Assembly: GCA_019348095.1 (NCBI GenBank)
Contig: JAHWKC010000001.1
Location: forward strand, 1-24,316
Length of the DNA: 24,316 nt
Reading direction: 5' to 3'
Origin: Pseudomonadota bacterium
Lineage (GTDB): Bacteria > Pseudomonadota > Gammaproteobacteria > Xanthomonadales > Xanthomonadaceae
Shown here: positions 1 through 17,909 of the stretch, piece after piece
How the letters are laid out: every line of letters begins with the position of its first letter
Numbering within the stretch: the stretch's first letter is position 1
Notes under the pieces: generated by a model
The model's database searches: none
Told to the model about the DNA's origin: nothing
Seen by the model: only the letters and a program-made list of their open reading frames with translations
Position numbers and translations under genes: made by a program

Positions 1-1679
1 CGGGCGCCCGGCAACGAGAGGACGACGTCCGCTTCCCCCGCGGGCGCCCGCCGCAGCCGACCGCTCGCCTCCAGCACGTCCAGCGCCTCGGCCAGGAAGG
101 GCGTCGCCGTTCCCGGCACGTGCACCCGGGGCGGCAGCCGCACCCTGGCCGCGAACCAGCGCCGATCGTCAGCCCGGAGGGCGTCGGGATCGGTCTCCAC
201 GTACCCTTCGATCCATCCGGCGGGGAAGGGTCCGAACGGCAGCACGGCGGTGGCCCCCGGCGGAGCCGCGCCGGCGGCGCGGATGCGGTCGCTGATGTCG
301 TGCGCGTGCACCACCACGCCCTCGACCTCTTCGCCGGGCTGGTGCGGAACGTAGTGCACGTCGAAATGGTGGGCCATGCCGGCGCGGTGGAAGGTAGCGG
401 GGAAGCGCACCGTCTCGCCCGCGAACGCCCGGTCCAGGTAGGGCGCGATGACCTTTAGCATCTCCGGCTCGTGCACCGCTGACAGCTTGGCGCCCTGGAT
501 GCCCTTGCCCGGATACCACTCCTCGTACAGGCTGTTGAACAGGCGGTAGCGCCGGCCGCGGTCGAGATAGCCGATGAAGGCCGGGATGCGGTCGATGATC
601 GAACGCATCAGCAGGCGCTGGGTGCGCAGCGTGCTGTCGATGCGCTTGCGCTCGGTGACGTCCACGGCAAGCAGCGCGACCTCGTCCTCGGCCACCACCA
701 CGGCGGTCAACAGCAGCCAGGCGCTGCTGCCGTCGGGCCGCAGCACCTGCACTTCGCGCGGCCCGTAGCCGCCGGCGCGCTGCAGGGTCTGGCGCAGCCC
801 CATCGGCGAGGAGGCATCCGGCAGCCGGTCCCAGTGCAGGGCCTGGTCGAGGTCGGCCTCGCCCAGCAGCATGCGCCGGAAGGCGCGGTTGCCGAGCCAG
901 CGCTGGCCGGCGAGGTCGGTGAAGCAGATGCCCCACAGGTCGGTCTCGAACACGGCGCGAAGTTTTCGTTCGCTCAGCGCCAGGGCAGCCTCGTGCTGGT
1001 CTGAACGCCGGCGAATGAACAGCAGCCGCCCCAGCGCGTCCTTGGAGGAGCTGCGCAGGCGGATGCTGGTGACTGCCAGCGAACCGATGGCGGGCAGCGG
1101 CGCGTCGATCACCACCGTCGCCAAGTGCGTCCCGCCGCCTGCATCCGGATCGGGCTGGTCGAATGCTGCCGCGTCCAGGCCGGGCACCAGTTCGGCGATC
1201 GCGCGCCCTTGCGCGTGGCGGGCCGACACCCCGAGCAGGTGCTCGGCAGCGGGATTGAAGTAGCGCACGCGTTCGGCGTCGTCGATCGCGATCACGCCAT
1301 CATCGATCCCACGCAGCACCGTGGTCAGGTGCGCCTGCCGTTCGATCGCGACCCGGCGCTGCTCGCGCGACTGCGAAATCAGCAGCACCACCAGGCTGGC
1401 GATGACGGTGAACACCACGATCCAGGGCGGATCGCTGTCGAGGCCGGCCTGCGGTACCAGCCACGCCACCGCCAGCACCGCAACGATCGCGGCGAACCCG
1501 CCACGCCGTCCGGCGAGCACCGCCGCGGCGATCACCGCCAGATAGCACACGCTCATCGGCAGCACGCCGCCGGCGTTGCGGCCGTAGTAGGCGTAAAGCG
1601 AAGCGGCGATCGCGACCAGGATCAGGGCGACGACGATGTCCCTGAGCCATAGCCATGACGCGGCCGCGCGCTCGTTCAT
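1..1679 (-). CDS. Membrane PAS-domain sensor protein, partial (runs off left edge)
   Basis: The reading frame opens at ATG 1679-1677 and stays open for 559 codons to the window edge. Residues 12-104 hold about four hydrophobic segments, resembling the DUF4118/KdpD-type membrane sensor region. Three PAS-like domains follow at about 117-228, 237-346 (ending in the typical DVTERKR) and 357-466 (ending HDISDR). No H-box or ATPase domain is visible in the part shown. The last 89 residues (471-559) are not coiled-coil or transmitter-like; from memory they resemble the extracytoplasmic part of BatA-type aerotolerance proteins (ALRADDRRWFA). The start codon overlaps the stop of the preceding cistron as ATGA, so translation is probably coupled. 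It is the third gene of an operon with a sigma-54 activator and is therefore likely the signal input for it. The sensing role is inferred, and the C-terminal function is unknown. Confidence 0.75.
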   Translation of the reverse strand, partial: MNERAAASWLWLRDIVVALILVAIAASLYAYYGRNAGGVLPMSVCYLAVIAAAVLAGRRGGFAAIVAVLAVAWLVPQAGLDSDPPWIVVFTVIASLVVLLISQSREQRRVAIERQAHLTTVLRGIDDGVIAIDDAERVRYFNPAAEHLLGVSARHAQGRAIAELVPGLDAAAFDQPDPDAGGGTHLATVVIDAPLPAIGSLAVTSIRLRSSSKDALGRLLFIRRRSDQHEAALALSERKLRAVFETDLWGICFTDLAGQRWLGNRAFRRMLLGEADLDQALHWDRLPDASSPMGLRQTLQRAGGYGPREVQVLRPDGSSAWLLLTAVVVAEDEVALLAVDVTERKRIDSTLRTQRLLMRSIIDRIPAFIGYLDRGRRYRLFNSLYEEWYPGKGIQGAKLSAVHEPEMLKVIAPYLDRAFAGETVRFPATFHRAGMAHHFDVHYVPHQPGEEVEGVVVHAHDISDRIRAAGAAPPGATAVLPFGPFPAGWIEGYVETDPDALRADDRRWFAARVRLPPRVHVPGTATPFLAEALDVLEASGRLRRAPAGEADVVLSLPGA

Positions 1680-1969
1680 CGGTGTGGCGAGGGATCACCG
1701 GGGCGGGCGCTTGGGTGGGCGCCGGAGGGCCGTTCGCCCGGAGCGCCGCCATCGGCATGCCCGTCGCGGCCGGGCTGAGCGCTCAACAGCGCCGCCGCGC
1801 GACGGCAGGCACCCTCCACGCGATCGATGTTGACCCTCGCCTGGTCGGGCTGGCCTGCCTCGAGCAATGATCTGGCCGCCGCGGCGGCCATCGTCGCGGT
1901 GTTGACCTCGTTGCGCAGCCGGTGCACCCATTGCGAGAAGCCGGCATCCGGAGCCGTCGAACCGCCCAT
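1676..1969 (-). CDS. Small H-box-like (DHp-like) protein, 97 aa
   Basis: I do not recognise a named family. The protein begins at ATG 1969 (or GTG 1972) behind a GGAGG ribosome site. This start overlaps the TGA of the response-regulator gene as TGATG, and its own TGA overlaps the next start as ATGA. Residues 11-62 form a predicted helical hairpin. Its first helix contains VHRLRNEVN with His16, which resembles the phospho-acceptor H-box of histidine kinases (H-E-L-R-N-P). The second helix is ARVNIDRVEGACRRAAALL. The C-terminal third is rich in Gly, Pro, Arg and Ser and looks disordered. No ATP-binding domain is present. Wedged between a receiver-containing activator and a membrane PAS protein, it could be a detached dimerisation/phosphotransfer module, but this is inference. 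The codon positions look coding and the overlaps on both sides support a real gene. Confidence 0.65.
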   Translation of the reverse strand: MGGSTAPDAGFSQWVHRLRNEVNTATMAAAAARSLLEAGQPDQARVNIDRVEGACRRAAALLSAQPGRDGHADGGAPGERPSGAHPSARPGDPSPHR

Positions 1970-3306
1970 CACCCCTCCGCCGTCGGCGCGTTGCCGCGCA
2001 ACCTCGCCAACTGGTTGTGGATGGTGCGCACGCTGACCCCCAGCGCTTCGGCGGTCCGGGTGCGGTCGTTGTCGAAATGGGCCAGCGTCTTGAGCAGCAT
2101 CTCGCGCTCGATCTCGGCATAGCTGGTGCCGACGGTGAACGAGACCGTGGTCGCGTCGTGATGCACCGGAGCACTACGGCGATAACCCGTCGTCACCTTG
2201 ATCTCATGCCCGCTGCTGACCAGGAACGCACGCTGGATGGCGCTGCGCAACTCGCGCACGTTGCCCGGCCAACGGTGCTCCAGCAGCACCCGGTCGGTGC
2301 CCGGCGCGAAGCGCTTCTCGACCTGGTAGTGGGCGTTGAGCCGGTCGAGGAAGAACTGCGCCAGCAGCACCACGTCGCGGCCCCTCGAGCGCAGTGGCGG
2401 CAACTCGACGTGGAAGTCGGCCAACCGGTAGAACAGGTCATCGCGCAGTGCACCGGCCTCGACCGCGGCCATCGGCTCGCGGTTGGTTGCCGCAACCACG
2501 CGCACGTCGGTGTCGATGCCCTCGCTGCCGCCAACCCGGGTCACTGTCCCGGTCTCCAGCACGCGCAGCAGGTAGACCTGCAGCGACGGCGGCATCTCGG
2601 TGATCTCGTCGAGGAACAACGTGCCGTGGTTGGCCTGCTCGAAGAACCCGACGTGTCGGGTGGCCGCACCGGTGAAGCTGCCACGCTCGTGGCCGAACAG
2701 ATGACTGGCGAGCAGGTCCGGCGCGATTGCACCGCAGTTGACCGCCACAAAGGGGCCGCGCCGCCCGCTCTGCTCATGCACCGCACGCGCGACGAGCTCC
2801 TTGCCGGTGCCGCTTTCGCCGGAGATGAGCACCGTCACCTGGGTCGGCGCGACCCGGCCCAGTTCCTGGTGCAGGCGCTGGATGGCGCCGCACTCGCCGA
2901 TCATGCCGGCCCGCTCCACCGGCACCCGGATCGTCTGCGTGCGCGCCGCGGCCTGCGCAAGCAAGGCCTCGAACTGCTCCGGGCACAGCGGCTTGATCAG
3001 GTAGTCGACCACCGGCAGCGAGACCGCCTTGGCGGCCGACTCGACCGAGGGCTGGCCGGTCACGACCGCGATCTGGCCGTGCTGGAGCAGGTCAAGGTCA
3101 TCGAGCAGGTCGAAACCGCTGCCGTCGGGCAGGGTCAGATCGAGCAACATCAGGTCGAGGGCGGGCAGGTGCGTGAAGCGCCGCGACTGTTCCAGGCTGT
3201 GCGCCATGTACGGGGTGAACCCGCGCGCGCGCGCGAAATCGGCAGCCGCCTGTGCGAAGTCGTGATCGTCATCGACGATCAGCAGAGTCGGACTGTGCTG
3301 CGGCAT
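1969..3306 (-). CDS. NtrC-family sigma-54-dependent response regulator
   Basis: This is a 445-aa two-component activator that would remodel sigma-54 RNA polymerase when phosphorylated. The receiver domain (about 7-120) has acidic pocket D12-D14, phospho-acceptor Asp56 (LMLLDLTLP) and Lys105. The AAA+ domain (about 132-365) has Walker A GESGTGKE at 163-170, the sigma-54 contact loop as GSFTGA at 209-214 (Ser in place of the usual Ala), Walker B TLFLDE near 229-234 and the WPGNVREL motif near 346-353. A Fis-type helix-turn-helix closes the protein at about 405-438. I start at ATG 3306 because GGAAGGG lies 5 nt upstream; an in-frame ATG at 3321 has no good ribosome site. It is the first gene of a three-gene overlapping operon. 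It lies divergently from genes with -24/-12 promoters, which are its likely targets. Confidence 0.93.
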   Translation of the reverse strand: MPQHSPTLLIVDDDHDFAQAAADFARARGFTPYMAHSLEQSRRFTHLPALDLMLLDLTLPDGSGFDLLDDLDLLQHGQIAVVTGQPSVESAAKAVSLPVVDYLIKPLCPEQFEALLAQAAARTQTIRVPVERAGMIGECGAIQRLHQELGRVAPTQVTVLISGESGTGKELVARAVHEQSGRRGPFVAVNCGAIAPDLLASHLFGHERGSFTGAATRHVGFFEQANHGTLFLDEITEMPPSLQVYLLRVLETGTVTRVGGSEGIDTDVRVVAATNREPMAAVEAGALRDDLFYRLADFHVELPPLRSRGRDVVLLAQFFLDRLNAHYQVEKRFAPGTDRVLLEHRWPGNVRELRSAIQRAFLVSSGHEIKVTTGYRRSAPVHHDATTVSFTVGTSYAEIEREMLLKTLAHFDNDRTRTAEALGVSVRTIHNQLARLRGNAPTAEG

Positions 3307-3476
3307 TCGATCCCTTCCCATCGGTATTCATCCGAGTAGGCGAGGCTAGGCGGCGTCGGGTTAATAACGTGTCGTTGCCAACGCTGAACGCTCCGGATTC
3401 GGGAAATCGCTGCACTTCCGTGAAGAATTTTCGACCGCGCTGGCCGCAGCGGACCCATGCGTGCCGTGCTGCTGAC

Positions 3477-3492
3477 GGGAACGATTCTTGCG
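3477..3492 (+). promoter_or_regulatory. Candidate weak sigma-54 promoter for the DUF4142 gene
   Basis: GGGAACGATTCTTGCG has the invariant GG at 3478-3479 and GC at 3490-3491 with exactly ten bases between them. The -24 element deviates from TGGCACG at two positions. Its position, about 90 bp upstream of the start, and the three strong sites nearby make it plausible. Confidence 0.45.
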
Positions 3493-3520
3493 CCACTCCC
3501 GCCGGGTCGGCTGCCCGTCA

Positions 3521-3538
3521 CGTTGGCTGTTTCCAACG
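3521..3538. promoter_or_regulatory. Inverted repeat CGTTGG-N6-CCAACG, candidate activator site
   Basis: Perfect 6-bp arms flank a 6-bp spacer. On the minus strand it reads CGTTGGAAACAGCCAACG, sharing GGAAACA with palindromes near the other sigma-54 promoters. It lies between the proposed promoter and the DUF4142 start, so it could also act as a leader hairpin. Confidence 0.4.
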
Positions 3539-3578
3539 GGCTGCACGCCCTGCTCCTCCCCCCGAACCCGGAGATCCC

Positions 3579-4193
3579 ATGAAAAAGTTCAGTACCTGTC
3601 TGGCCGTCGGTGGCGTGCTCGCCGCCAGCGTGGTCGGCGCCTTGATGCTGGCTTCCCCCGCCCCGACCACGCGGGCGCGCCGCCAGTCGCGGCGGCCCGA
3701 TCTCGCATTCCATGCCAGGGCGTTGCGCGCCGGGGTGGCGGCGGTCGCCGCGAGCCGGCTGGCGCAGGAGCGCTCGGACGACGACGAACTGCGGCGCCTG
3801 GCCGAGCGCATCGAGCAGGATCACATCGCGTCCAATGCCGCCTTGGCCGAAGCCAGCGGCCTGCCGTCGAGTGAGCCGGGGCTGGCCCACCAGATCCGGC
3901 TCGACCGGCTCGAGCGCCTGTCGAGCGCTACCTTCGACCGCGCTTGGCTGGAGCACATGCACCGTGACCACGCGCAGTCGATCGCGCTTTACCAGCGGGC
4001 TGGACGCACTGCCACCGAGGCGCAGACCCGCGCCCACGTCGAGGAGACACTTGGCATGCTGCGTGAGCATGCCGAGCAGATCGATGCCCTGCTGACGACG
4101 ATGCTAACAACGCCCGAACTATTTCCAGAGCACGAACTTGGCCAGACCGACGCGGACGAAACGAGCCCGCAAGCGGGCACCTTGGCGCACTAG
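3579..4193 (+). CDS. DUF4142 ferritin-like exported protein
   Basis: The 204-aa product starts at ATG 3579 behind GGAG. Residues 1-26 (MKKFSTCLAVGG...) form a signal peptide or N-terminal anchor, so it is probably periplasmic. The rest is nearly all helical and fits the DUF4142 four-helix, ferritin-like family: helix one has RAGVAAVAASRLAQERS, helix two RRLAERIEQDHIASNAALAE, and later helices carry MHRDHAQSIALYQ and REHAEQIDALL. The repeated D/E-H pairs are characteristic. Family members often occur among stress-induced genes, but no biochemical activity is established to my knowledge. An acidic tail of about 20 residues follows. It sits downstream of a candidate sigma-54 promoter, divergent from the sigma-54 activator operon. 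Confidence 0.85.
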   Translation: MKKFSTCLAVGGVLAASVVGALMLASPAPTTRARRQSRRPDLAFHARALRAGVAAVAASRLAQERSDDDELRRLAERIEQDHIASNAALAEASGLPSSEPGLAHQIRLDRLERLSSATFDRAWLEHMHRDHAQSIALYQRAGRTATEAQTRAHVEETLGMLREHAEQIDALLTTMLTTPELFPEHELGQTDADETSPQAGTLAH

Positions 4194-4242
4194 TCCGACC
4201 TCCACGCGACGCGGCGACACAGGGCGCCGCGTCCACGAGTGT

Positions 4243-4254
4243 CCGGAAAGACCG
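4243..4254. promoter_or_regulatory. GGAAAGA palindrome beside promoter
   Basis: CCGGAAAGACCG (CGG-AAAGA-CCG) lies 2 bp upstream of the next -24 element. It resembles the GGAAACA palindromes upstream of the neighbouring sigma-54 promoters. It is too close for a classical enhancer, so it may instead modulate polymerase binding. Confidence 0.35.
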
Positions 4255-4255
4255 C

Positions 4256-4271
4256 TGGCATGAGAGTTGCG
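4256..4271 (+). promoter_or_regulatory. Sigma-54 (-24/-12) promoter, disordered-protein gene
   Basis: TGGCATGAGAGTTGCG matches TGGCAYG-N4-TTGCR, with GG at 4257-4258, ten bases, then GC at 4269-4270. Transcription would start near 4282, giving a leader of about 40 nt before the ATG at 4324. Confidence 0.82.
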
Positions 4272-4323
4272 AGACCCAGATCGCCTCACTTCCGAGGCGT
4301 ATCCACAGCTCCGGAGAGCGACC

Positions 4324-4488
4324 ATGCCGAACAACAATCCGCAAGGTGAAAACCAGCACACCAAGCGTGCCGGTGGCAGCAGCCAGAAGCAGGACAGTCA
4401 GAGCAGCAGCGGCCGCAATGGATCGCAGGGCAGCAAGCAGGCCAAGAGCGCTGGCAGCAGCAGCAGTTCCAAAAAGCAACAGCGCTGA
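4324..4488 (+). CDS. Small hydrophilic disordered protein, 54 aa
   Basis: I do not recognise the family. The ATG at 4324 has GGAGAG upstream. The product is almost wholly Ser, Gln, Lys, Gly and Asn (MPNNNPQGENQHTKR at the start, SSSSSKKQQR at the end), with no Cys, Trp, Tyr, Phe, Leu, Ile or Val. It should be disordered and basic, with hydrophilin-like composition. A strong sigma-54 promoter precedes it and a strong terminator follows within 10 bp, so it is a separately transcribed unit and a real gene despite its low complexity. An in-frame upstream ATG at 4267 lies within the promoter and can be discarded. The pairing with another small low-complexity protein gene under the same promoter type suggests a protective or condensate-forming role under stress; this is inference. 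Confidence 0.75.
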   Translation: MPNNNPQGENQHTKRAGGSSQKQDSQSSSGRNGSQGSKQAKSAGSSSSSKKQQR

Positions 4489-4497
4489 TGTAGCAGT

Positions 4498-4533
4498 GGC
4501 GCGCGCCCTCCCCCCCCGGGGCGCGCGCCTTTT
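4498..4533 (+). terminator. Rho-independent terminator
   Basis: The arms GGCGCGCGCC (4498-4507) and GGCGCGCGCC (4520-4529) form a very stable stem with a C-rich loop, followed by TTTT. It ends the 54-aa protein transcript. Confidence 0.88.
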
Positions 4534-4570
4534 CAGGAAACACTGTGCGCGCCTTTTCCGGAAACACCGG
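4534..4570. promoter_or_regulatory. Paired GGAAACAC palindromes, candidate enhancer of the dehydrogenase gene
   Basis: CAGGAAACACTG (4534-4545) and CCGGAAACACCGG (4558-4570) are two copies of one motif spaced 24 bp apart, each preceded by GCGCGCCTTTTC. They lie about 85-120 bp upstream of the -24 element, the usual distance for an NtrC-type activator bound as dimers. A further CGGAA-N5-TTCCG repeat is at 4597-4611. Binding by the local activator is inferred. Confidence 0.5.
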
Positions 4571-4652
4571 TAGAGCGGCGGGCGCACTTTTTTCCCCGGA
4601 AATTTCTTCCGCGGCCGCTCCCGGCGACAGACCGGTCTTTGTGCCGCTGCCG

Positions 4653-4668
4653 TGGCACGTCCCTTGCG
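4653..4668 (+). promoter_or_regulatory. Sigma-54 (-24/-12) promoter, dehydrogenase gene
   Basis: TGGCACGTCCCTTGCG is a perfect match to TGGCACG-N4-TTGCR, with GG at 4654-4655 and GC at 4666-4667. The expected start of transcription is near 4679, 23 nt before the ATG. Confidence 0.92.
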
Positions 4669-4701
4669 ATCCGTTCCCTGACCCCCGGCAAAGGAAGCGC
4701 A

Positions 4702-5868
4702 ATGAAGGCCCTGACCTACCAAGGCGCGCACGACGTGCGCGTGGAAACCGTCCCCGACCCTGTCATCCAGTACGAGCAGGACGTGGTGCTGCGGGTGACC
4801 GCGACCGCAATCTGCGGATCGGACCTGCACCTGTATCGCGGCAGCATCCCACTGGTGAAGGATGGCGACATCCTCGGCCACGAGTTCATGGGCGTGATCG
4901 AGGACGTCGGCCCGGGCGTGACCGGGCTCAGGAAGGGCGACCGCGTGGTGGTCCCGTTCAACATCGCCTGCGGCCAGTGCTTCTTCTGCGAGCGCGAGCT
5001 GACCGCCGCCTGCGAGAACTCCAATCCCGACCGCGGCGCGATCCTCAACAAGAAGGACATCCCCTCGGCCGCCGCCATGTTCGGCTACTCCCATCTGTAC
5101 GGTGGCGTGCCGGGCGGCCAGGCCGAGTTCGTGCGGGTGCCGTACGCCGATACCAACACCCTGAAGCTGCCCGACGGACTCAGCGACGAGCAGGTGCTGT
5201 TTTTGTCCGACATCCTGCCCACCGGCTACCAGGCCGCGATCAATGCCGGGATCACCCAGGGCTCGAGCGTGGCGATCTTCGGCGCCGGTCCGGTCGGCTA
5301 CATGAGTGCGGCCTGCGCACGGCTGCTCGGTGCCGAGCGCATATTCATGGTCGACCACCACCCCTACCGGCTCGATTTCGCCAGGCGAACCTACGGGGTG
5401 GAAACGATCGATTTCGACGAGCACGACGACCCGGCACAGCTCATCAACGACGCGACCCAGGGCCGCGGCGTCGACGCGTCGATCGATGCGGTGGGTTTCG
5501 AGGCAAAGGGCAGCACGACCGAGACGGTGCTGACCAAGCTCAAAATCGAAGGCAGCAGCGGCAAGGTCCTGCGCCAGGCGATCGCCTGCACGCGACGCGG
5601 CGGCACGGTCAGCGTTCCCGGCGTGTATGCCGGATTCATCCACGCGTTCCTGTTTGGCGATGCGTTCGACAAGGGCCTGTCGTTCAAGATGGGCCAGACC
5701 CACGTGCTCAAGTACATGCCGGAGCTGTTGGAGCACATTCAGATGGGCAACCTGAAGCCGGAGGTGATCATCTCCCATCGCATGCCGCTGTCGGAAGCGG
5801 CGCGCGGCTATGAGATGTTCAACGAAAAGCAGGACGACTGCCGCAAGATCGTGTTGACGCCCCATTGA
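4702..5868 (+). CDS. Zinc-dependent alcohol/formaldehyde dehydrogenase (MDR superfamily)
   Basis: The 388-aa product is a medium-chain zinc dehydrogenase that uses NAD(P) to oxidise an alcohol or aldehyde. Catalytic zinc ligands are Cys38 ([12 protein letters not shown]), His60-Glu61 (GHEF) and probably Asp170 (LSDILPTG). The structural zinc site is C90-C93-C96-C104 ([16 protein letters not shown]), and the Rossmann turn is GAGPVG at 194-199. The [17 protein letters not shown] and [15 protein letters not shown] segments place it nearest the glutathione-independent formaldehyde dehydrogenase-like (FdhA-like) branch; the substrate cannot be read from sequence. It has no signal peptide, so it is cytosolic. 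The start is fixed by AAGGA 6 nt upstream. A perfect sigma-54 promoter makes it a strong candidate target of the activator encoded at 1969-3306. A role in clearing reactive aldehydes during stress is inferred. Confidence 0.9.
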
Positions 5869-5894
5869 CGGCAGCTGCAGCAAAGACAGCAGCG

Positions 5895-5908
5895 CTCGGA
5901 AACATTGG
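5895..5908. promoter_or_regulatory. GGAAACA motif, candidate activator site
   Basis: CTCGGAAACATTGG shares CxGGAAACA with the paired sites upstream of the dehydrogenase. It lies about 65-75 bp upstream of the next -24 element, in the range for a sigma-54 enhancer. Its dyad symmetry is weaker than that of the other copies. Confidence 0.42.
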
Positions 5909-5970
5909 TCCTGCAGGCAATAAATTCACCGCTCCATCGGCTTTGGCACGCCCTACGAAGGATCTTCTTG

Positions 5971-5986
5971 TGGCACGCGAATTGCG
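5971..5986 (+). promoter_or_regulatory. Sigma-54 (-24/-12) promoter, Gln/Gly repeat gene
   Basis: TGGCACGCGAATTGCG is a perfect consensus match, with GG at 5972-5973 and GC at 5984-5985. Transcription should begin near 5997, about 40 nt before the ATG. A second TGGCACG at 5944 lacks a -12 element. Confidence 0.92.
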
Positions 5987-6037
5987 ACATTCCAGTGTCG
6001 GCACCCTGCCGGCGAAACCCCACAATCGGAGCACGTC

Positions 6038-6256
6038 ATGGCTAATCAACGCGATCAACAAGGTCAGGGCCGCCAGGGCCAGAACGAACAGCAGCAGGGC
6101 CAGGGCCGCCAGGGCCAGAACGAGCAACAGCAGGGCCAGGGCCGCCAGGGCCAGGGCGAGCAACAGCAGGGCCAGGGACGCCAGGGCCAGAGCGACCCAT
6201 TGCAGGGTCAGGGTATGAATCGAGAAGAAGAACAAAACCGTCAGCAGCGCCGTTAA
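6038..6256 (+). CDS. Gln/Gly-rich tandem-repeat protein, 72 aa
   Basis: I do not recognise a named family. The ATG at 6038 follows GGAG at 7 nt spacing. The protein is built of a 12-residue unit, QGQGRQGQNEQQ, repeated about four times between residues 8 and 58. An acidic-then-basic tail, MNREEEQNRQQRR, follows. It has no hydrophobic core, Cys or aromatic residue and should be disordered and highly hydrated, with hydrophilin-like composition. A perfect sigma-54 promoter precedes it and a terminator follows, so it is a single-gene unit. Together with the 54-aa Ser/Gln/Lys protein it suggests that this regulon makes small protective disordered proteins, but no function is demonstrated. Repeat number probably varies between strains. 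Confidence 0.78.
   Translation: MANQRDQQGQGRQGQNEQQQGQGRQGQNEQQQGQGRQGQGEQQQGQGRQGQSDPLQGQGMNREEEQNRQQRR
6059..6195 (+). repeat. 36-bp in-frame tandem repeats
   Basis: About four copies of a 36-bp unit beginning CAGGGCCAGGGCCGCCAGGG run inside the Gln/Gly protein gene. The copies differ by a few third-position and one- or two-codon changes. They keep the frame, so they act at the protein level. Confidence 0.85.
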
Positions 6257-6271
6257 GAGCCTGCACTGCCG

Positions 6272-6306
6272 AACGCCTCGGGCCCCCTCCCGGGGCGTTC
6301 TTTTAT
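6272..6306 (+). terminator. Rho-independent terminator
   Basis: The arms GAACGCC (6272-6278) and GGCGTTC (6295-6301), with an inner CGGG/CCCG stem, are followed by TTTTA. It ends the Gln/Gly protein transcript. Confidence 0.88.
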
Positions 6307-6391
6307 TGCGGTGGCCATCACCGGCGGTGGTCAGGCTTCCAAGACACGCCCCAGAACGGAAGATCACGGCGACGCTGCCGGAAAGGACCTC

Positions 6392-8338
6392 ATGAAGCGG
6401 TTCGAGCCCGAAGACCTGTACCGCCACCACACCCTGCAGGCCCTCGACGGCTCGATCCGCCACGACCGCGCAGTGGTCCTGGTGAGCCGCGCACTGCAGC
6501 AAGCCGACCGCTATGAATCAATCGTGTGGCGGCTCACGGCCGGCGACGATCCACACCCGCTCACCTCGCCCGCGTTCGACGTCCAGTCGCCAAGGCTGAG
6601 CCCTGACGGCAGCACGCTTGCGTTCCTGTCCAGGCGCGATGGCGACAGCACGCAGCTCCACCTGCTCCCGCTCGACGGCGGTGAGGCCACCGCGCTGACC
6701 GACGAGCACACCCACAAGATGCGATCAATCCTGGGGTGGTCCCACGATGGCCAGCGGCTGCTCGCCACCGTGAAGGTCGACTGGTGCGAAGACCGCAACG
6801 TGCCCGCGCCAGACCCGCCGGCCGATGGCCCGGTAATCGTCAACTTCCTGCCCTACAAGCTCGACGGCAGCGGCTATTCGACCGGTCAGCGAAGCCACCT
6901 GTACGCGGTGGATGCCGGCAGCGGCGCACTCACCGCGCTGGTCGAAGGCGACTTCGACGTCAGTGCGGGGTCCTGGTCACCCGACGGCCGCTCGCTGGCG
7001 TACACCCGCAAACGCGCCGGCCGGGAGCGCCATCGCAGCGACCTGTGGCTGGCCGATGCCGACGGTGCCAACGCACGACAGGTGACGCACGACCTCGCCT
7101 CGGTCCAGGGCGCGGCCTGGTCGCCCGACGGGCGCTGGATCGCATTCGCTGGCAGCGAGTGCGAAGGCGACTCGCTGCTGGGGCTGTGGCTGTTCGATGT
7201 TGCCAAAGACTCGCTGGAGCGTCTCGACCGGGAGCTCGAAATCGCCACCGGAAACCCGTTGTGGCACCCCGACGGTGACCGGCTGGCGGTCATCGCCGCA
7301 CACCGCGGCCTTCAGGAAATCGCCATCGTCGGCGTGCCCGGCGGGCCCACCCGGCGCCTGCACGCCGGCTTGCGCCACGTGCTGCAACTGGCACAGCAGC
7401 GCGACCGGCTGCTGTTCGGCGTCGCCAGCATGCGCCGACCGTGCGAGGTGCACTCGGCGCGCTGGGACGGCGAGGACGAGCAGCGCCACAGCGCGTTCAA
7501 CCGCGCCTGGTTTGGCCGCCTCAGCCGTCCGCGCGTGTCCAAGCGCGAGTTCGAGGTGCCCGACGGCAATGGCGGGACAGAAACCATCGAAGCCTGGCTG
7601 CTGCTGCCGCCGGAGGAAAGCGCCGGCCCCTACCCGCTGCTGGTCGACATGCACGGCGGCCCGCAGAGCTACACCCTGATCGACTACGCCGCGCACGTGC
7701 ACTGGTACACCCTGTGCTCGCGCGGCTGGGCGGTGCTGTCGCCGCATGCGGCCGGCTCGGGCAGCTACGGCGGCGAGTTCGCGCGGCGCCTGCGTGGCCA
7801 CTGGGGCGAGCTCGACCTGCCGCAGTATCTGGCGGTCATCCGGGCGCTGCAGGACGAAGGCCTTGCCGACGAGCGCCTGGCCTGCACCGGCAAATCCTAC
7901 GGCGGCTTCCTGAGCGCGTGGTCGATCGGCCAGTGCGACGTGTTCAAGGCCGCGGTGGTGTCGGCGCCGGTCAGCAATATCGAATCGCATGCCGGCTCGT
8001 CCGACAGCGGCTACTACGTCACCCCTTACGCGATGGACGGTGAGATCAACGAGGTGCGCGAGCGCTACCACGCCTTGTCGCCGGTCGAGTACTGCATCGA
8101 CGTCGGCGCTGCGACCCTGATCCTGCAGGGCGAGGACGACCAGCGCTGTCCGCTGGGCCAGGCCGAAGAGTTGTTCGCCAACCTGATCCGCTGCTCTAAA
8201 TCGCCGGTGCAGATGGTGGTCTATCCCGGCGGGAGCCACTCGTTGTCCGGCAGCGGCAAGCCCAGCCACCGGGTCGACTATCACCGCCGGCTGACCGATT
8301 GGGTGCAGCGCTGGGCCGCGCAGAAGGCCAACGTTTGA
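6392..8338 (+). CDS. S9 family peptidase (prolyl oligopeptidase / acylaminoacyl-peptidase type)
   Basis: The 648-aa product is a serine peptidase of clan SC that would cleave short peptides. Residues about 40-370 form a beta-propeller with TolB/PD40-type blades (SPDGSTLAFLSRRDG, SWSPDGRSLAYTRKR, AWSPDGRWIAFAG). The alpha/beta-hydrolase domain occupies about 390-648. Its catalytic triad is visible: Ser502 in GKSYGGF, Asp583 in GEDDQRCP and His616 in GGSHSLS. The HGGPQSY segment supplies the oxyanion region. No signal peptide is present, so it is cytosolic. I start at ATG 6392, 6 nt after AAAGGA; an in-frame ATG at 6311 has only the preceding terminator upstream. The gene follows that terminator and no sigma-54 site is seen, so it is probably independent of the upstream regulon. 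Substrate preference is not predictable. Confidence 0.92.
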   Translation: MKRFEPEDLYRHHTLQALDGSIRHDRAVVLVSRALQQADRYESIVWRLTAGDDPHPLTSPAFDVQSPRLSPDGSTLAFLSRRDGDSTQLHLLPLDGGEATALTDEHTHKMRSILGWSHDGQRLLATVKVDWCEDRNVPAPDPPADGPVIVNFLPYKLDGSGYSTGQRSHLYAVDAGSGALTALVEGDFDVSAGSWSPDGRSLAYTRKRAGRERHRSDLWLADADGANARQVTHDLASVQGAAWSPDGRWIAFAGSECEGDSLLGLWLFDVAKDSLERLDRELEIATGNPLWHPDGDRLAVIAAHRGLQEIAIVGVPGGPTRRLHAGLRHVLQLAQQRDRLLFGVASMRRPCEVHSARWDGEDEQRHSAFNRAWFGRLSRPRVSKREFEVPDGNGGTETIEAWLLLPPEESAGPYPLLVDMHGGPQSYTLIDYAAHVHWYTLCSRGWAVLSPHAAGSGSYGGEFARRLRGHWGELDLPQYLAVIRALQDEGLADERLACTGKSYGGFLSAWSIGQCDVFKAAVVSAPVSNIESHAGSSDSGYYVTPYAMDGEINEVRERYHALSPVEYCIDVGAATLILQGEDDQRCPLGQAEELFANLIRCSKSPVQMVVYPGGSHSLSGSGKPSHRVDYHRRLTDWVQRWAAQKANV

Positions 8339-11000: not shown

Positions 11001-11087
11001 CTGCAGGAGCACCGTCGCTGCAGGAGCGAGCCATGTCCTCGACCGTGCCATACGCAGCAAAACGATCGCGCCCACGGGGCGCTCCTA
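11001..11087. repeat. REPIN-like pair of GTAG REP sequences
   Basis: The right-hand copy (11063-11087), read on the minus strand, is GTAGGAGCGCCCCGTGGGC and onward, with hairpin GCGCCC/GGGCGC. The left-hand copies at 11002-11030 (GCAGGAGCG) are degenerate and inverted relative to it. The core matches the REP pair at 23987-24095. It fills most of the gap between the c-di-GMP protein gene and the giant kinase gene. Confidence 0.7.
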
Positions 11088-14000
11088 CGGCGCCGCGCGC
11101 TGGCGTCGCTTGAGCCGCCGCAGTGAGTCCACCAGCGCCATCAGCGCGGCCGGCTCGACCGGCTTGACCACATGCGCGTCGAACCCGCTCTGCTCGCTGC
11201 GGCGCCGGTCCTCGTTCTGGCCCCAGCCGGTCACCGCTATCAACACGATGTCCGCGCCCCAGGGCTGCTCCCTGAGCTGCCGGCACACCTCATGCCCGTC
11301 AGGCTGCGGCATGCCCAGATCGAGCAGCACCACGTCCGGCCGGAACGATGCGGTGGCTTCGATGCCTTCGGAGCCTCCATAGACGGCACGCACCTCGTGG
11401 CCGGAAATGCGCAGGAACAGCGCCAGCGAATCGGCACTCTCGTGATTGTCATCGACCACCAGGATGCGGTGCACCATCTGCTGGCTGCCGTTGCCCTCGT
11501 GTTCGGCCGGATCGTCCGCTACCGCGCGATGTGCGTGCAGCGGCAGGCGCACGACGAACTCGCTGCCGTGGCCGAGGCCTGCGCTGCGCGCTTCGACCTG
11601 CCCGTCGTGCAGCGCGACCAGGCTGCGCACCAGGGTCAGGCCGATGCCGAGGCCGCCCTGCGCGTAACCCCGCGACTGATCGATCTGCGCGAACATGTCG
11701 AACACCCGCGGCAGCATGTGCGGGGCGATGCCTAGGCCGTTGTCGCGCACCGAGACCACCACGAAATCGCCCTCGCGGCGAGCGGCCAGCGTGATCCGGC
11801 CGCCGCTGTCGCTGTACTTGGCCGCGTTGTTGAGCAGGTTGGCGAACACCTGCGACATCCGCACCGGATCGACGTGCAACGGCAACGGCTCGTCCGGCAG
11901 CTCGATCTCCATGTGGTGCTGGCCGGCGTCGATCAGTGGCTTGCTGGTTTCCACGGCGTTTCGCACCACCTCGGACAGGTCGACCCGCTCGCAGCGCAGC
12001 TCGATGTTGCCGCGGGTCACGCGCGAGACTTCCATCAGGTCGTCCACCAGGCGCACCAGGTGTTTGACCTGGCGCTCCATCATGTCGTGCAGCTGCGCGG
12101 CGTCTGGCTCGTCGTCGTGCTTCATCCGCAGGATGTGCAGGCAGTTGCGGATCGGCGCGAGCGGATTGCGCAACTCGTGCGCCAGCGTCGCCAGGAACTC
12201 ATCCTTGCGGCGGTCGATGTCGCGCAACGACTCCTCGGTCTGCTTGCGCTCGGTGATGTCAAGCACCGATCCGAGCATCAGCAAGGGCCGGCGCGGGGTC
12301 TCGTCGCAGTGCTCGTGGTCGCTGCCGGCCTCGTGGTCGAACAGCGTCTGCCCGCGCGATACGGCCCAGCGGATGCTGCCGTCGCGGTGGACCCAGCGGA
12401 ACTCCTCGCCATAACGCCCGTCACCCTCCGGCCGCGTCGCGGCCTTGAGCGCGGCGATCACGCGCGGCCGGTCCTCGGGGTGGATGCGGGCGGCGATCTC
12501 CTCCAGCGACGGCGGTGCATGTGGTTCGAGGCCGCAGATCTCACGTGTGCGTGCATCCACGCGGATCGTGCCCGGCGCGGGCTCCCAGCTCCAGGTGCCG
12601 AGCTTGGCGACGGTCAGCGCCAGCGATGCACGCTCCTCGCTGACCCGCAGCGCCTCCTCGGCGCGCTTGCGGTCGGTGATGTCCAGGCTGACGCCGGCCA
12701 CCCGGGTCGGCTCGCCGGCGGGGTCGTAGAACACGCGGCCGCGGGCGATGATCCAGTGCAGGCTGCCATCGGGCCAGGTCGCTCGGAACTCCGCGTCGAA
12801 GTCCTCTACCTGGGTCACGGCCTTCATCACCTGGCGCTTAAGGAACTCGCGGTCGTCGGGGTGCACCAGTTGATCGAGAAGGCGGGTGTAGTCCAGCGGC
12901 GCATGGGCGGGCAGGCCGAGGTGGGCGCGGCACAGCTCGTCGCCGCTGAAGTCCCTCCCCGGCAGGCGCAGCTCCCACGAGCCCAGTCGGCCGGTGTCGA
13001 GCGCGACGCGCAGGCGCTCCTCGTTCTCGGCAAGGCCACGCATCGCCCGCGCCCGTTCGATGGACTCCCAGCACCGGTTCGCCACCAGCCGGGTCCATTC
13101 GATGTCGTCGTCGCTCCAGGTCCGCGGCGTGGCCTGGTAACCACTGACGGTGGCCACCAGCCGACCGTCTTTGCGTAGCGGAACGGCCAGGATCGCGCGG
13201 ATCTGCAGCGTCGCATAGCGCTCCCGCTGCTGGGCGGTGAGCCCCTCGTGCTCGACGTCATCCTCCCAGAACGGCCGGCCGGCACGCATCGCATCGTGCA
13301 GGACCTCGCCGAAATCGGACAGGCGGAAGCGCCCCGCCATGCTCGGCAGCCCGGGGCTGTAGTTGCCGACCACCGTTTCCCAATCCTCATCGGCATCGAC
13401 CTCGACATACGCCGCACCGTCCAGCTTGAGGTGCTCGCCGAGCACGCGGACCACCGCCAGCGCGATCTCGTCGGGATCGCCCAGCGGCATCGCGGCATCG
13501 TCGACCGCCACCAGCAGGCGGTCACGGTCCTCGACCCGCTTGCGCCGGGTGATGTCCTGGGTGACCGTCATCGCCGCGACGATCGCGCCGCCGTGGTCCT
13601 TGATCGGCGAGACATCGCTGCTGACCCAGACCATGCTGCCGTCGGCTTGCACGCAACGATGGTCGACGGCGAACGCCTGGCCGTTGTCCAGCATGCGCTC
13701 AAACAGCAGATTGCTGACCGGCAGGTCCTCGGGATGGACCAGGTCCTGCATGAGCATGCCGATCAACTGCTCGCGGCTGTGCCCGACGATTTCGCAGTAG
13801 CGATCGTTGACCATGCTGAAACGGCCGTCGACATCGGTGTAGGAGATCCCACCACCGGCCTGGTTGAAGATGGAGGCGAATCGGCGCTCGCTCTCGCGCA
13901 AGGCGGCCTCGGCATCGGCGCGCTCGAGCCGCAGGTGGATGCGTGCGGTCAGCTCGCGCAGCAGGTCGACCTCCCCGGACTGCCAATTCGAGACGTGGTC

Positions 14001-17000
14001 GCGGTGCGCGGCCAGCACGAATTTCCAGTGTCCCTCACTGAAGAACGGCACCACCACCTGCGACCTCACTCCGTGCTCCATGTATGCCTCGGAGAGATCG
14101 ACGGTGCGCGGATCGCTGGCGACATCGTCGACCACGACGACTTCACCGGCGCGCAACGCCTCCAGGAACGGCTCGCTGACGAAGTCCGAGAAACGGTGCG
14201 GCCCGGGTCCGATCTCGGGCTGCGCACCCTCCGTGCGGTAGACGAGCCTCAGATGCTCGGCGGCTTCGTCCACCTCGCCGAAGGTCAGCCAGAGCAGACC
14301 GAAGTGCAAGCGCATCATGGCCCCGATCGTGCGCATGATCGCGTGGGCGTCGGTCAGTACCGACAGCTCACGGCTAACCTTGGACAGAAACTCGAGGTTG
14401 AGTTCCTCACGCTTGCGCCCGCTGATGTCGCGGAACAGGATTGCGACGTGCCGCAGATGCGGCGCATCAATGCGGCAGGCGTAGACGTCGAACCAGCGGC
14501 CCATCGCATCCGCCGATGCCTCGAAACGGGCCGGCTCGCCGGTCAGCGCGACGCGCGCGTACGCCTCGACCCAACCCTGCTCGAGGCCGGGCACTAGTGC
14601 CCGCATGGTCTTGCCTTCCGCATCGTGCAGATCAGTCTGATCGACGAACGCCGGGTTGGTTTCGAGGAAGCGGTAGTCGACCGGCTCGCCGGCATCGTCC
14701 AGCAGCACCTCGACCACGCAGTAGCCTTGGTCGACCGAGTCGAACAGCGCCCGGTAGCGGCCCTCGCGGTCGGCCAGCGCACGGGTCACGCGGGCACGCT
14801 CGATCGACTCCCAGCAGCGGTGCGCGACGATGCGGCACAACTCGGTTTCGTCTTCGACCCAGGCGCGAGGGACCCTGCGGTGCACCGCCAGCACCGCCGC
14901 CAGCCGGCCGCCCTTGTGCAGCGGCACCGACAGGCTTGCCCGCGCGTGCACCGCCCGGTGCAGGTCGATGTGGCCGGCGATACGTGGATCGGATTCGGCG
15001 TCCTCGATCGCGAACACCCGATCCTCGAGCATGGCCCGCAGCAGAGCGCCTCCGAAGTCCCCGATCCGCCGGGCACCGCGCATCGCGGGCATGTCGCCGC
15101 GCCGGAAATCCCCTAGCATCGTGCTGTGGTCTTCGTCCTGGTGGACCTCGGCGAAGATCACGCGGTCGGCATCGAGGTGCCCGCGCAACAGCGCACCGGC
15201 GGCGGCGAGCATCGTCTCCGGCTCGACCAGCATCCGCAGCGCCGCATCCAGGCGCAGCAGGAACTCGTTGCGCCGCTGCGCCTGCTTGCGTTCGGTGATG
15301 TCCAGCGCCATCGCGATGACGAACCGCCGCCCGTCGCGCAAGGTACCCGGCGAGGAGGCACTCAGGCTCCAGGTGCGGCGATCGCCGGCGCGGGTGTCGA
15401 ACTCGAAGTCCGTCGACAGGGTGCCGCCGCAATCGAACACACCGCGCACCGCGTCGGCCACATCGCTGCCGTAGGCCTGGCTCAACCAGTACCGCAGTTG
15501 CGCGGTGTCGCGCAGGCCGTATCCGGTGAGCGCACTCCAGGCGTGGCTCAGCTGCAATACCTCGCCGTCCTCGGCGTGCATCATTACCGGGATGGGAGCG
15601 TCCTGTACGGCCCGGCGGAACTGCTCGCCGCTTTCGCGCAGGGCCGCTTCCACGCGCGCACGCTCGATCGCCACCGCGGCGGTGCGCGTGGCGATGCGGA
15701 TGATCTCGCTGTCCTGCGGACTGGATTCCTGCGGCTCTCGGTAGTACAGCGCGAAGGTTCCCAGCACCTCGTCTTCGCTGGACAGGATCGGCGTTGACCA
15801 GCACGCGCGCAATCCGCACGGCACCGCGACATGGCGAAAGTCGTCCCATAGCGGATCGGTGGCGATGTCGCACACGTAGACCGGCTCGCGGCGGTACACC
15901 GCGGTGCCGCAGCTGCCGGCCCTCGGGCCGATGGCGATGCCGTCTACGGCCTGGTTGTATGCCTCCGGCAGGCTCGGTGCGGCGCCGTGGCGCAGGTGCG
16001 CGCGGTCGCGGTCGAGCAGCAGCACCGAGGCGACCATCCCGTCTTCGGATACGGACTCGACCACCTGGATTAGCGCGTGCAGCACCTCCGGCAGCGGCTC
16101 GCCCCTGGCGATCCGCTCCAGCACGCCGGCCAGCCCGGTCTGCAAGGTCTCGGCGCGCTTGCGGCTGCCGATGTCCAGCACCACTGCGCTCAGGCCCAGG
16201 TACTCGCCGTCCGGGCCACGCAGGGCATTGACGCTGCTGGTGGCCCACAGCGCTCCACCGTCCTTGCGCCGGTAGCACTTCTCGATGGTGAAAGCCGGGC
16301 CGCCCTCGGCCAGCCGCCGTACCGCCTCCCGGGTCTGCGCGAGACTGACCGGGTCAGTGAGGTCGGTGATGTTCAGCCCCAGCATTTCCTGCTCGCTGTA
16401 GCCGAGCATCTCGCACCAGCACCGGTTGACAAAGGTGATGCGGCCGGCAGCGTCGGTCTGGACCACGCCGGTGATGGTGTGGTTGACGATGTTGCGGTAG
16501 CGCGCCTGGCTGACGCTCAGCGCCTGCTGCCCCTGTGCGGCCTCGATCACGGCCGAAGCGTACTGGGCCAGTTGCACCAGGATCGATTCGTCCTCGCCGG
16601 TGAACTCGCCGGCGTGCTTGTCGGAGACCTGCACCACGCCGATATTGCGCCCGTCGCCGCCGACCAGCGGCGCAGCCAGGCAACCCCGAAGCGGCGGGTG
16701 GCCCTCGGCCCCCTCGCTGGAACCGCGCCATGCCGGATGCGCAAGCAGTTGTTCGTGGGTCAGCCGCACCGGCCGGTTGCTGCGGCTGACCTCGCCAAAG
16801 ATGCCGGTGCCGCGCACCTGCTTGCCGAGATCGCGCCACTGCTTGTACTTGTCAGAGAGCGACACGCTGGTGACGGCGGCCGACCAGTTGCCCTCCCCCT
16901 CGCGGTGACCGCCGTCCTCCCCGCCGACGCTGCGCACGCTGATCACGCACTGGTGGGTTCCGGTGATCTCGCGCACCCGCTCGGTGCATATCTGCAGCTT

Positions 17001-17690
17001 GGCCTCGATGCTCGGTGCCGCGCCCATGGCCAGCGTCGCTTGGGCGATCGCATGGAGCTGCTCGGCGCTGCGGCGCGCGCGCTCGTCGGCCCGCATGCGC
17101 TCGATCCAGTCCGCAGCCTGGCGCGCCAGCAGGTCGATCAGGCGCAGGTCGCCGCGGGTGGGCGCGTGGTCGCGGTAGTGCGTGGACAACATTCCGAGCA
17201 ACTCGCCCGAGCGGCTGCGCATCGGCGTCGACTGCACGGCCACGAACCCGGCATCGAGGATCACCCGGCGTGCTTCCTCGGTGAACACCGGACTGCTGAC
17301 TACATCCTCCACGACGACCCGTCCGCCGTGCTGCATGGCTACCCCGCATGCAGAATCGGCGCCGTCGACGAGATCGAAGTGCCTTTGGAACGTAAGATCG
17401 AGCCCGCGACTGGCGCTCAGGCGCAATACCACGTGATCGTCGGAATGCCGCTCCAGCAGCTGCGCGTTGCCGGCGTCGGCACCGGTGAGTTCGACCGCCG
17501 CATCGACGATGTCCTGCAACAGGCTTGCCTGATCGCCGCGGCTGACCAGGCGCATGCTCAGTTCGTGCAGTCGTCCCGCGGCAACCAGATCCATGCCCCC
17601 GTCGGCCACGGACGCCCCATCGCCCGGCGGTGCCTCGCGGGCACCAGCGACAGGTCTCGCATACTCATCGCGAGCGTTGCGCTCACTCAT
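11085..17690 (-). CDS. Giant soluble hybrid sensor histidine kinase, 6 GAF + 6 PAS, 2201 aa
   Basis: This protein would integrate many cytosolic signals and autophosphorylate. Modules in order: GAF (45-200), GAF (226-385), PAS (395-512), GAF (535-680), PAS (688-802), GAF (828-968), PAS (978-1093), GAF (1119-1258), PAS (1268-1385), GAF (1409-1550), PAS (1559-1675) and PAS (1688-1815). HisKA follows with His1838 in AHELRNPLAPI. The HATPase has NLLNNAAKYS near 1951, DNGLGI at 1983-1988 and GGLGIGL at 2012-2018. The C-terminal receiver has D2080-D2081, phospho-acceptor Asp2124 and Lys2176. No membrane segment or signal peptide is present. I start at ATG 17690, 10 nt after GGAGG, and not at the in-frame start at 17819. 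It has no DNA-binding domain and no adjacent output regulator, so its target is unknown. Its TAG stop lies inside a REP sequence. Confidence 0.93.
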   Translation of the reverse strand: MSERNARDEYARPVAGAREAPPGDGASVADGGMDLVAAGRLHELSMRLVSRGDQASLLQDIVDAAVELTGADAGNAQLLERHSDDHVVLRLSASRGLDLTFQRHFDLVDGADSACGVAMQHGGRVVVEDVVSSPVFTEEARRVILDAGFVAVQSTPMRSRSGELLGMLSTHYRDHAPTRGDLRLIDLLARQAADWIERMRADERARRSAEQLHAIAQATLAMGAAPSIEAKLQICTERVREITGTHQCVISVRSVGGEDGGHREGEGNWSAAVTSVSLSDKYKQWRDLGKQVRGTGIFGEVSRSNRPVRLTHEQLLAHPAWRGSSEGAEGHPPLRGCLAAPLVGGDGRNIGVVQVSDKHAGEFTGEDESILVQLAQYASAVIEAAQGQQALSVSQARYRNIVNHTITGVVQTDAAGRITFVNRCWCEMLGYSEQEMLGLNITDLTDPVSLAQTREAVRRLAEGGPAFTIEKCYRRKDGGALWATSSVNALRGPDGEYLGLSAVVLDIGSRKRAETLQTGLAGVLERIARGEPLPEVLHALIQVVESVSEDGMVASVLLLDRDRAHLRHGAAPSLPEAYNQAVDGIAIGPRAGSCGTAVYRREPVYVCDIATDPLWDDFRHVAVPCGLRACWSTPILSSEDEVLGTFALYYREPQESSPQDSEIIRIATRTAAVAIERARVEAALRESGEQFRRAVQDAPIPVMMHAEDGEVLQLSHAWSALTGYGLRDTAQLRYWLSQAYGSDVADAVRGVFDCGGTLSTDFEFDTRAGDRRTWSLSASSPGTLRDGRRFVIAMALDITERKQAQRRNEFLLRLDAALRMLVEPETMLAAAGALLRGHLDADRVIFAEVHQDEDHSTMLGDFRRGDMPAMRGARRIGDFGGALLRAMLEDRVFAIEDAESDPRIAGHIDLHRAVHARASLSVPLHKGGRLAAVLAVHRRVPRAWVEDETELCRIVAHRCWESIERARVTRALADREGRYRALFDSVDQGYCVVEVLLDDAGEPVDYRFLETNPAFVDQTDLHDAEGKTMRALVPGLEQGWVEAYARVALTGEPARFEASADAMGRWFDVYACRIDAPHLRHVAILFRDISGRKREELNLEFLSKVSRELSVLTDAHAIMRTIGAMMRLHFGLLWLTFGEVDEAAEHLRLVYRTEGAQPEIGPGPHRFSDFVSEPFLEALRAGEVVVVDDVASDPRTVDLSEAYMEHGVRSQVVVPFFSEGHWKFVLAAHRDHVSNWQSGEVDLLRELTARIHLRLERADAEAALRESERRFASIFNQAGGGISYTDVDGRFSMVNDRYCEIVGHSREQLIGMLMQDLVHPEDLPVSNLLFERMLDNGQAFAVDHRCVQADGSMVWVSSDVSPIKDHGGAIVAAMTVTQDITRRKRVEDRDRLLVAVDDAAMPLGDPDEIALAVVRVLGEHLKLDGAAYVEVDADEDWETVVGNYSPGLPSMAGRFRLSDFGEVLHDAMRAGRPFWEDDVEHEGLTAQQRERYATLQIRAILAVPLRKDGRLVATVSGYQATPRTWSDDDIEWTRLVANRCWESIERARAMRGLAENEERLRVALDTGRLGSWELRLPGRDFSGDELCRAHLGLPAHAPLDYTRLLDQLVHPDDREFLKRQVMKAVTQVEDFDAEFRATWPDGSLHWIIARGRVFYDPAGEPTRVAGVSLDITDRKRAEEALRVSEERASLALTVAKLGTWSWEPAPGTIRVDARTREICGLEPHAPPSLEEIAARIHPEDRPRVIAALKAATRPEGDGRYGEEFRWVHRDGSIRWAVSRGQTLFDHEAGSDHEHCDETPRRPLLMLGSVLDITERKQTEESLRDIDRRKDEFLATLAHELRNPLAPIRNCLHILRMKHDDEPDAAQLHDMMERQVKHLVRLVDDLMEVSRVTRGNIELRCERVDLSEVVRNAVETSKPLIDAGQHHMEIELPDEPLPLHVDPVRMSQVFANLLNNAAKYSDSGGRITLAARREGDFVVVSVRDNGLGIAPHMLPRVFDMFAQIDQSRGYAQGGLGIGLTLVRSLVALHDGQVEARSAGLGHGSEFVVRLPLHAHRAVADDPAEHEGNGSQQMVHRILVVDDNHESADSLALFLRISGHEVRAVYGGSEGIEATASFRPDVVLLDLGMPQPDGHEVCRQLREQPWGADIVLIAVTGWGQNEDRRRSEQSGFDAHVVKPVEPAALMALVDSLRRLKRRQRAAP

Positions 17691-17909
17691 CGAAGGGCCG
17701 CCTCCGCTGGCAAATGGCGGGAACCCTTGGTTATACGCCGTACAGCGTAATTTCACGTCAACATTATGATGCTGAAACCTGCTTCGCGCTGGCGCGAGCC
17801 GATTGCGGCGCACTCGCATCTAATACGCATGGTGCGACCGGGCCCCTGAGCGCCACGTTTACGGATCGGTGGGCAACCGCCAAGTGCTTCCGGGTAAAGT
17901 GTCGGCCTG
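17691..17909. other. Divergent intergenic region, giant kinase / copL
   Basis: This 219-bp gap holds the promoters of the kinase (minus) and the copper operon (plus). On the minus strand TTGACG (17761-17756) and TATAAC (17735-17730) look like -35/-10 elements but are 20 bp apart, longer than optimal. For copL I see only TAATAC at about 17821 without a convincing -35. No known copper-regulator box was recognised. Confidence 0.45.
17734..17749. promoter_or_regulatory. Inverted repeat TACGC-N6-GCGTA, candidate operator
   Basis: TACGCCGTACAGCGTA has perfect 5-bp arms and overlaps the -10-like TATAAC on the kinase side. A regulator bound here could control the kinase promoter. No protein is assigned. 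Confidence 0.35.

Follow-up and report, generated by a model that had tools for sequence, protein, structure and literature searches.

The 24,316-nucleotide stretch analysed here, referred to as the window, is the whole of contig C111 (JAHWKC010000001.1) from a gammaproteobacterium of the order Xanthomonadales (assembly GCA_019348095.1). Comparison of its sequence with those of relatives suggests that a locus within it, an activator gene (1969..3321, minus strand) and the genes lying divergent from and adjacent to it, is probably the core of a sigma-54-dependent stress regulon with a short protein as phosphotransfer partner. In the proposed mechanism, a phosphorylatable NtrC-type activator would bind enhancer elements of the GAA-N5-TTTC kind, mostly about 43 to 152 bp upstream of -24/-12 promoters, and activate RpoN polymerase at genes that encode small stress proteins, here a DUF4142 protein, a dehydrogenase, and two disordered proteins. 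In relatives, the proposed targets of the same switch are KGG, BON, RES, hemerythrin, SDR, and DUF2383 proteins. The activator would probably be phosphorylated via the adjacent short DHp-like protein, which has no ATPase domain and which may be the phosphotransfer (or phosphatase) partner that links kinases encoded elsewhere to the activator, as PhyT is for PhyR. The original prediction of a self-contained sigma-54 regulon next to its own activator was mostly right, but the regulon appears wider and differently composed than was stated.

Three near-perfect promoters had been predicted in the window, and exact sites are indeed present on the plus strand at TGGCATGAGAGTTGCG (4256..4270), TGGCACGTCCCTTGCG (4653..4667), and TGGCACGCGAATTGCG (5971..5985). 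All three were read from the sequence and scored with a matrix whose frequencies were set from the published consensus and whose maximum possible value is 18.8. They score 15.2 to 15.8 and are the sole window positions to reach at least 15, with a gap of 34 to 53 nt from the end of each 16-mer to the ATG. Sites of at least 15 numbered 0.20 on average (maximum 2) in 300 dinucleotide-shuffled windows, none of which reached three, and this rules out a chance origin for the trio. With GG at -24, GC at -12, fixed spacing, and a near-consensus sequence, these sites are predicted sigma-54 promoters; a fourth site at 3477, discussed below, has these features only weakly. The claim that no comparable site exists elsewhere in the window is nearly right, as the runner-up, AGGCAAGCCTGTTGCA at 17515 on the minus strand, scores 14.7 and falls within a long open reading frame. 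A simple scan of positions 3200 to 6400 found no sigma-70-type promoter. The available assembly (2.71 Mb in 480 contigs, 72% complete) contains TGGCAYGNNNNTTGC eight times, three of them in the window, and the reversed-pattern control once. The RpoN gene of this genome is located on contig C423 (L053).

The activator is made up of a receiver, a sigma-54 AAA+ domain, and a Fis-type helix-turn-helix, the three parts by which NtrC-type sigma-54 activators are recognized, and it is predicted to be one. In the receiver (PF00072), the phospho-Asp D61 and K110 are invariant among 10 aligned sequences. The AAA+ domain (PF00158, 214 bits) has Walker motifs that are conserved in the 10 aligned orthologues and a GSFTGA loop in which S is nearly invariant and all remaining residues are invariant, while the helix-turn-helix (PF02954) scores 33.8 bits against a cut-off of 22. 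The protein falls under the curated cut-off of every NCBIfam model among the matches listed (25 of 75 matched), and against TIGR02915, the PEP-CTERM-box response regulator, it reaches 321 bits where 502.6 are required. At E <= 1e-180 the activator is found in 48 of 395 genomes of the family and in 16 of its 54 genera; one genome (G145) has copies on two contigs (L166 and L174).

Fifty activator loci were compared: the window, eight of 12 stretches from relatives (L039-L046, with L043 and L044 coming from different families within the order), L055 and L057, which were kept from 8 stretches read of the best 80 of 452 pattern-matched related stretches, and 39 of 40 further stretches. A site scoring 15 or more lies within 4 kb of the activator at 45 of the 50, and such sites total 75 in 374,803 bases; in 20 shuffles the means were 3.1 loci and 3.2 sites, with maxima of 5 and 7. 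Strong sites thin out with distance, from 2.1 per 10 kb in the nearest 2 kb to 0.25-0.35 per 10 kb at 5-8 kb from the activator. Together with a shared enhancer motif, this supports the central claim that the regulon lies beside its own activator.

The enhancer motif was trained on other genomes only, with the window held out. Learned upstream of 14 foreign sites, it reached a likelihood of 111.0 against 70.2 +/- 2.7 (maximum 75.3) for 24 shuffled sets, and after retraining with 63 foreign sites the median best score was 18.5 upstream, measured on training data, and 2.7 downstream, where the maximum was 13.7. The two best of the 48,586 window positions are an element upstream of 3477, between the activator and DUF4142 genes (3410..3433, plus strand; score 20.2, rank 1), and one upstream of 4653 (4587..4610, plus strand; score 19.1, rank 2), both centred about 55 bp upstream of their sites. 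Promoters that diverge from the activator might be homologues of the one at 3477, so the motif was retrained on 46 sites, none of them activator-divergent; the two elements keep ranks 1 and 2 (21.6 and 17.4), and the maximum of 1,841 random window stretches is 13.0. Across all sites of at least 15 that were compared, 66 of 89 have an enhancer score of at least 15, mostly centred 43-152 bp upstream. We infer that the activator may bind the motif.

The same motif sets limits on the original prediction. Four complete relatives contain TGGCAYGNNNNTTGC at 29 places, of which eight have an enhancer score of at least 13.5 and the remaining 21 score no more than 9.5, so equating a perfect site with membership of this regulon is ruled out. 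Of the eight, seven are no more than about 15 kb from the activator, four of these having been used in training, and L235 alone is found elsewhere. In the window's own genome, a divergent promoter pair on contig C183 (19.2), one promoter of which has a RES-domain gene downstream, and a promoter of a BON protein on C377 (13.0) have the motif; a fliE-type site on C423, named by eye (-0.4), and a site on C428 (4.8) do not. The word self-contained is therefore too strong, since the C183 and C377 promoters bear the same enhancer and -24/-12 pair.

The gene that overlaps the end of the activator gene (1676..1972, minus strand) encodes a DHp-like protein of 97-98 residues with an HRLRNEVN motif, which resembles a histidine kinase in its phosphoacceptor hairpin alone. 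An H-x-x-x-N-type protein follows the activator within 1.8 kb at 42 of the 49 loci whose sequence extends far enough (33 recognized by pattern, 9 by reading) and is mostly 56-105 residues long, although the motif lies inside proteins of 179-208 residues in L044, L057, and L196. The His and Asn are invariant across 29 aligned members. The modelled structure is a two-helix hairpin with a mean predicted local distance difference test score of 84.7 and with His16 on helix 1, and so the protein has the conserved His on a predicted DHp hairpin that is seen in PhyT, ChpT, and Spo0B; in both alignment and model the chain stops after the hairpin, with no degenerate ATPase-like domain. Its database relatives are from Novilysobacter (81% identical) and Xanthomonas and are named hypothetical or histidine kinase-like, and a sequence search of the PDB placed two bacteriophytochrome sequences at E 0.044, ranked under designed helical proteins. 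PhyT, which contains an HRxxN motif and a degenerate ATPase domain, takes phosphate from SdrG and hands it on to PhyR (PMC5898713); the short protein is perhaps a minimal analogue of it. At L047 and L048, which belong to different families within the order, the activator is accompanied by a single-domain receiver and a complete HisKA/HATPase kinase, and a pattern search found no such short protein there. At L050, a locus of Xanthomonas type, the genes for the activator and the short protein stand near a CheB-CheR-PAS-HWE kinase, with no site of at least 15. Because of these kinase neighbours and the PhyT precedent, we infer that a phosphorelay may run through the short protein.

Alternatively, the short protein may not be a phosphotransferase but may act as a phosphatase or as an inhibitor that forms dimers, or be a helical hairpin of unrelated origin, a possibility that falls only somewhat short of even. 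Fold comparison matched many unrelated hairpins from which a DHp could not be distinguished, and matches to HisKA (PF00512) are weak, occurring in 18 of the 29 members at E values up to 1 (best 6.8e-05) and not in the window's own protein. PhyT was likewise first proposed to have phosphatase activity (PMC5898713). Yet HisKA is the commonest Pfam family among the 29 members, the His and Asn do not vary, and the gene adjoins that of a receiver-containing activator, all of which argue against this alternative.

The fourth and weaker site that had been proposed, GGGAACGATTCTTGCG (3477..3491, plus strand) before the DUF4142 gene, scores 10.1, similar to several further window positions and too low to be called alone. 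Matches to TGGCACGNNNNTTGC with at most two mismatches number 13 in the window against 13.7 expected, a chance level that makes them uninformative, and as the site is at chance by sequence, its support comes only from comparison with relatives. Counted from the activator's first aligned residue, 3477 lies at 156 nt and aligns with TGGAACG-N4-TTGC at 159 nt (L039), TGGCACG-N4-TTGC at 155 nt (L168), and TGGCATG-N4-TTGC at 157 nt (L169); the corresponding sites of further close relatives (L170-L172) lie at 328-357 nt. We read 3477 as a weakened orthologous promoter, with the best enhancer match of the window also in its favour. It is unlikely, but conceivable, that 3477 is a chance match and that the element at 3410-3433 acts on 4256 or on the promoter of the activator itself. 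The low score, the chance level of two-mismatch matches, and the genes behind the L168 and L169 sites, which are not DUF4142, would all agree with this, but the coincidence in position with stronger sites in three relatives would not.

The genes behind the window's sites, all on the plus strand, encode a DUF4142 protein of 204 residues (3579..4193; PF13628, 81.4 bits), a disordered-looking protein of 54 residues (4324..4488), a zinc-binding dehydrogenase (4702..5868; PF08240 and PF00107), and a Q/G-rich repeat protein of 72 residues (6038..6256), followed by a terminator-like hairpin (6271..6300, plus strand) of 12 pairs and a T-rich tail; terminator-like sites in the region number 5 against 2.8 expected. 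Among the models, those for glutathione-independent formaldehyde dehydrogenase come closest to the dehydrogenase, which reaches 246.5 bits for TIGR02819, below the cut-off of 636.95. Neither small protein has a Pfam or NCBIfam match. The 72-residue gene is built of repeated units encoding a GRQGQNEQQQGQ-like motif, and no homologue of its product was found at E 0.001, a result that its composition makes uninformative. For both small proteins low complexity made the search of the compared loci uninformative, the 72-residue protein failing to match even itself.

In relatives, 14 proteins starting after sites of at least 14.8 were picked by hand as targets. Ten of them have Pfam matches above cut-off, to KGG, BON (twice), RES, hemerythrin, DUF4142, SDR, glyoxalase-like, DUF2383, and Transgly_assoc families. 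Searches with tblastn across 54 loci (the 50 and four contigs of the window's own genome) found BON at 34, a nameless 119-residue family at 21, SDR at 16, and RES at 13. The KGG query matched only 2, fewer than the sites that are followed by KGG-type reading frames, and proteins of this kind are therefore under-counted by the search. The 119-residue family (L177:6357-6716 and similar) has no Pfam match and is often the first gene after a strong activator-divergent site. DUF4142 recurs at 9 of the other 53 loci, only three of which have a site of at least 12.5 within 700 nt upstream. The dehydrogenase is confined to the window among the loci searched, and the exact gene set of the original prediction is therefore not supported. 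What is conserved, as far as these comparisons indicate, is a switch with stress-type targets, the list of which varies between lineages. Targets of a stress type, as had been suggested, are supported by the families seen in relatives; desiccation is not directly supported. Two further loci are of note. In L. gilvus (L057:6067-7890), RES, KGG-like, and DUF4142-like frames, all but the last named by eye, are grouped divergently from the activator with no site of at least 13 nearby, and in L. lacus (L055:12187-14979) a gene for a LigD DNA-repair ligase adjoins the Q/G-rich stress-type gene but does not itself follow the strong site.

Stress is the presumed signal for the activator. The same switch could instead answer to one specific cue, such as aldehyde, envelope, or surface stress, which would fit the likeness of the dehydrogenase to formaldehyde dehydrogenase models, the recurrence of SDR and glyoxalase-like genes, and the small number of perfect sites (6-11 per genome in the four complete relatives). 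We consider this rather improbable, as the target families are diverse and lineage-variable across relatives. General stress regulons are characterized by just such targets. That the sites are real sigma-54 promoters served by another, NtrC- or FleQ-like activator, with the neighbouring activator a bystander, is very improbable: each genome examined does have several sigma-54 activator paralogues, but strong sites cluster round this activator at nine-tenths of the loci (45 of 50), and the enhancer motif is present at these promoters and absent at fliE-type ones.

Several observations weigh against a sigma-54 stress regulon with a short-protein partner, besides the weak HisKA matches given above. 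At the Xanthomonas-type loci L050, L058, and L060, the short protein or activator is present and no site of at least 15 was found. Of the 63 promoters used for training, 11 have upstream regions with scores under 13.7, the highest downstream control, and these scores were measured on the training data themselves. The enhancer matches of 4256 and 5971 are weak, at ranks 11 and 9 with the 63-site motif, the latter being an element at 5916..5939 on the minus strand, and both remain weak with the 46-site motif (9.7 and rank 9 for 4256; 8.1 and rank 10 for 5971). Four of the 14 targets picked by hand match no Pfam family above cut-off. Gene content varies, and tblastn with the window dehydrogenase gave no match at any of the 53 further loci. 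The short protein of L043 has Asp instead of His, and at 6 of 49 loci (L041, L042, L045, L173, L175, and L190) none was found, although L190 perhaps has a broken form.

The next gene in the activator operon (6..1679, minus strand) encodes a PAS protein, by Pfam families, with a hydrophobic N-terminal part, and is a candidate for the cognate kinase. The end of this frame (window 1-290) matches a PF07584 protein (P0002) with 73% identity over 17% of the query, and a Pfam scan of the terminal piece by itself gave no match. Since the end resembles a different protein, the contig end may be chimeric and the true C-terminus of the PAS protein is uncertain. Further along, the window encodes a 2244-residue hybrid histidine kinase (11085-17819), in which GAF and PAS domains recur and a receiver stands at the C-terminus, and a cluster that by eye is of copper type (18363-22990), with a multicopper-oxidase-like protein containing Met/His-rich repeats and its neighbours. 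At L039:1-3085, the activator is adjoined by what appears by eye to be an integrase of integron type, accompanied by small frames that run on the other strand.

Activators of the NtrC, ZraR, and AtoC kind likewise have a receiver, an AAA+ domain with a GSFTGA loop, a Fis-type helix-turn-helix, and enhancers upstream of -24/-12 sites; here, however, at the family-core loci examined, a short DHp-like protein and no full kinase gene adjoins the activator. The regulons of RpoS and SigB overlap with the proposed one in target families (KGG, BON, and ferritin-like), but a sigma-70-type factor is at work there and sigma-54 here. The alphaproteobacterial PhyR-PhyT-EcfG system (PMC5898713) has a phosphotransferase derived from a kinase, with an HRxxN-type motif, beside a response regulator and a stress-gene output, as is proposed here. 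Its output runs through EcfG and an anti-sigma factor and not through sigma-54 and an enhancer, and the short protein lacks the degenerate ATPase domain and membrane part of PhyT. ChpT and Spo0B also have a phosphoacceptor hairpin and no working kinase domain, but are larger and retain a degenerate ATPase-like domain (in part after PMC5898713). Searches of an open-access library gave no description of this activator, motif, or gene set.

General stress responses are usually run by a dedicated sigma-70-type factor. The RpoS model cut-off of 378.7 bits was passed in three of 60 genomes, all outside the family. Among 36 genomes of the family, the window's own included, there was no match above 292.7 bits, and all matches were in RpoD-sized frames of 565 residues or more. 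Four of the 36 (the window's own genome, G013, G022, and G029) have no RpoS-model match at the E-value used; all are less than 90% complete, and as the window's genome is 72% complete, absence of RpoS there is not proven. Outside the family, ten of 24 genomes match at 333-400 bits, nine of them in frames of about 290-360 residues. It is possible, and we propose it only tentatively, that Lysobacteraceae without RpoS run their general stress response by sigma-54, with the stress genes under an NtrC-type activator that has an enhancer code of its own and with a DHp-only protein of about 60-100 residues as the hub of a phosphorelay from scattered kinases, in convergence with PhyR-PhyT. If true, such a response would depend wholly on an ATP-using activator and would therefore behave as a tight switch. 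The DHp-only protein, if it is a phosphotransferase, would be smaller than PhyT, ChpT, and Spo0B. The paired enhancer and -24/-12 site may serve as a ready means of listing the regulon in further genomes, and the locus would offer a testable answer to how stress genes are controlled in a family where RpoS was not found.

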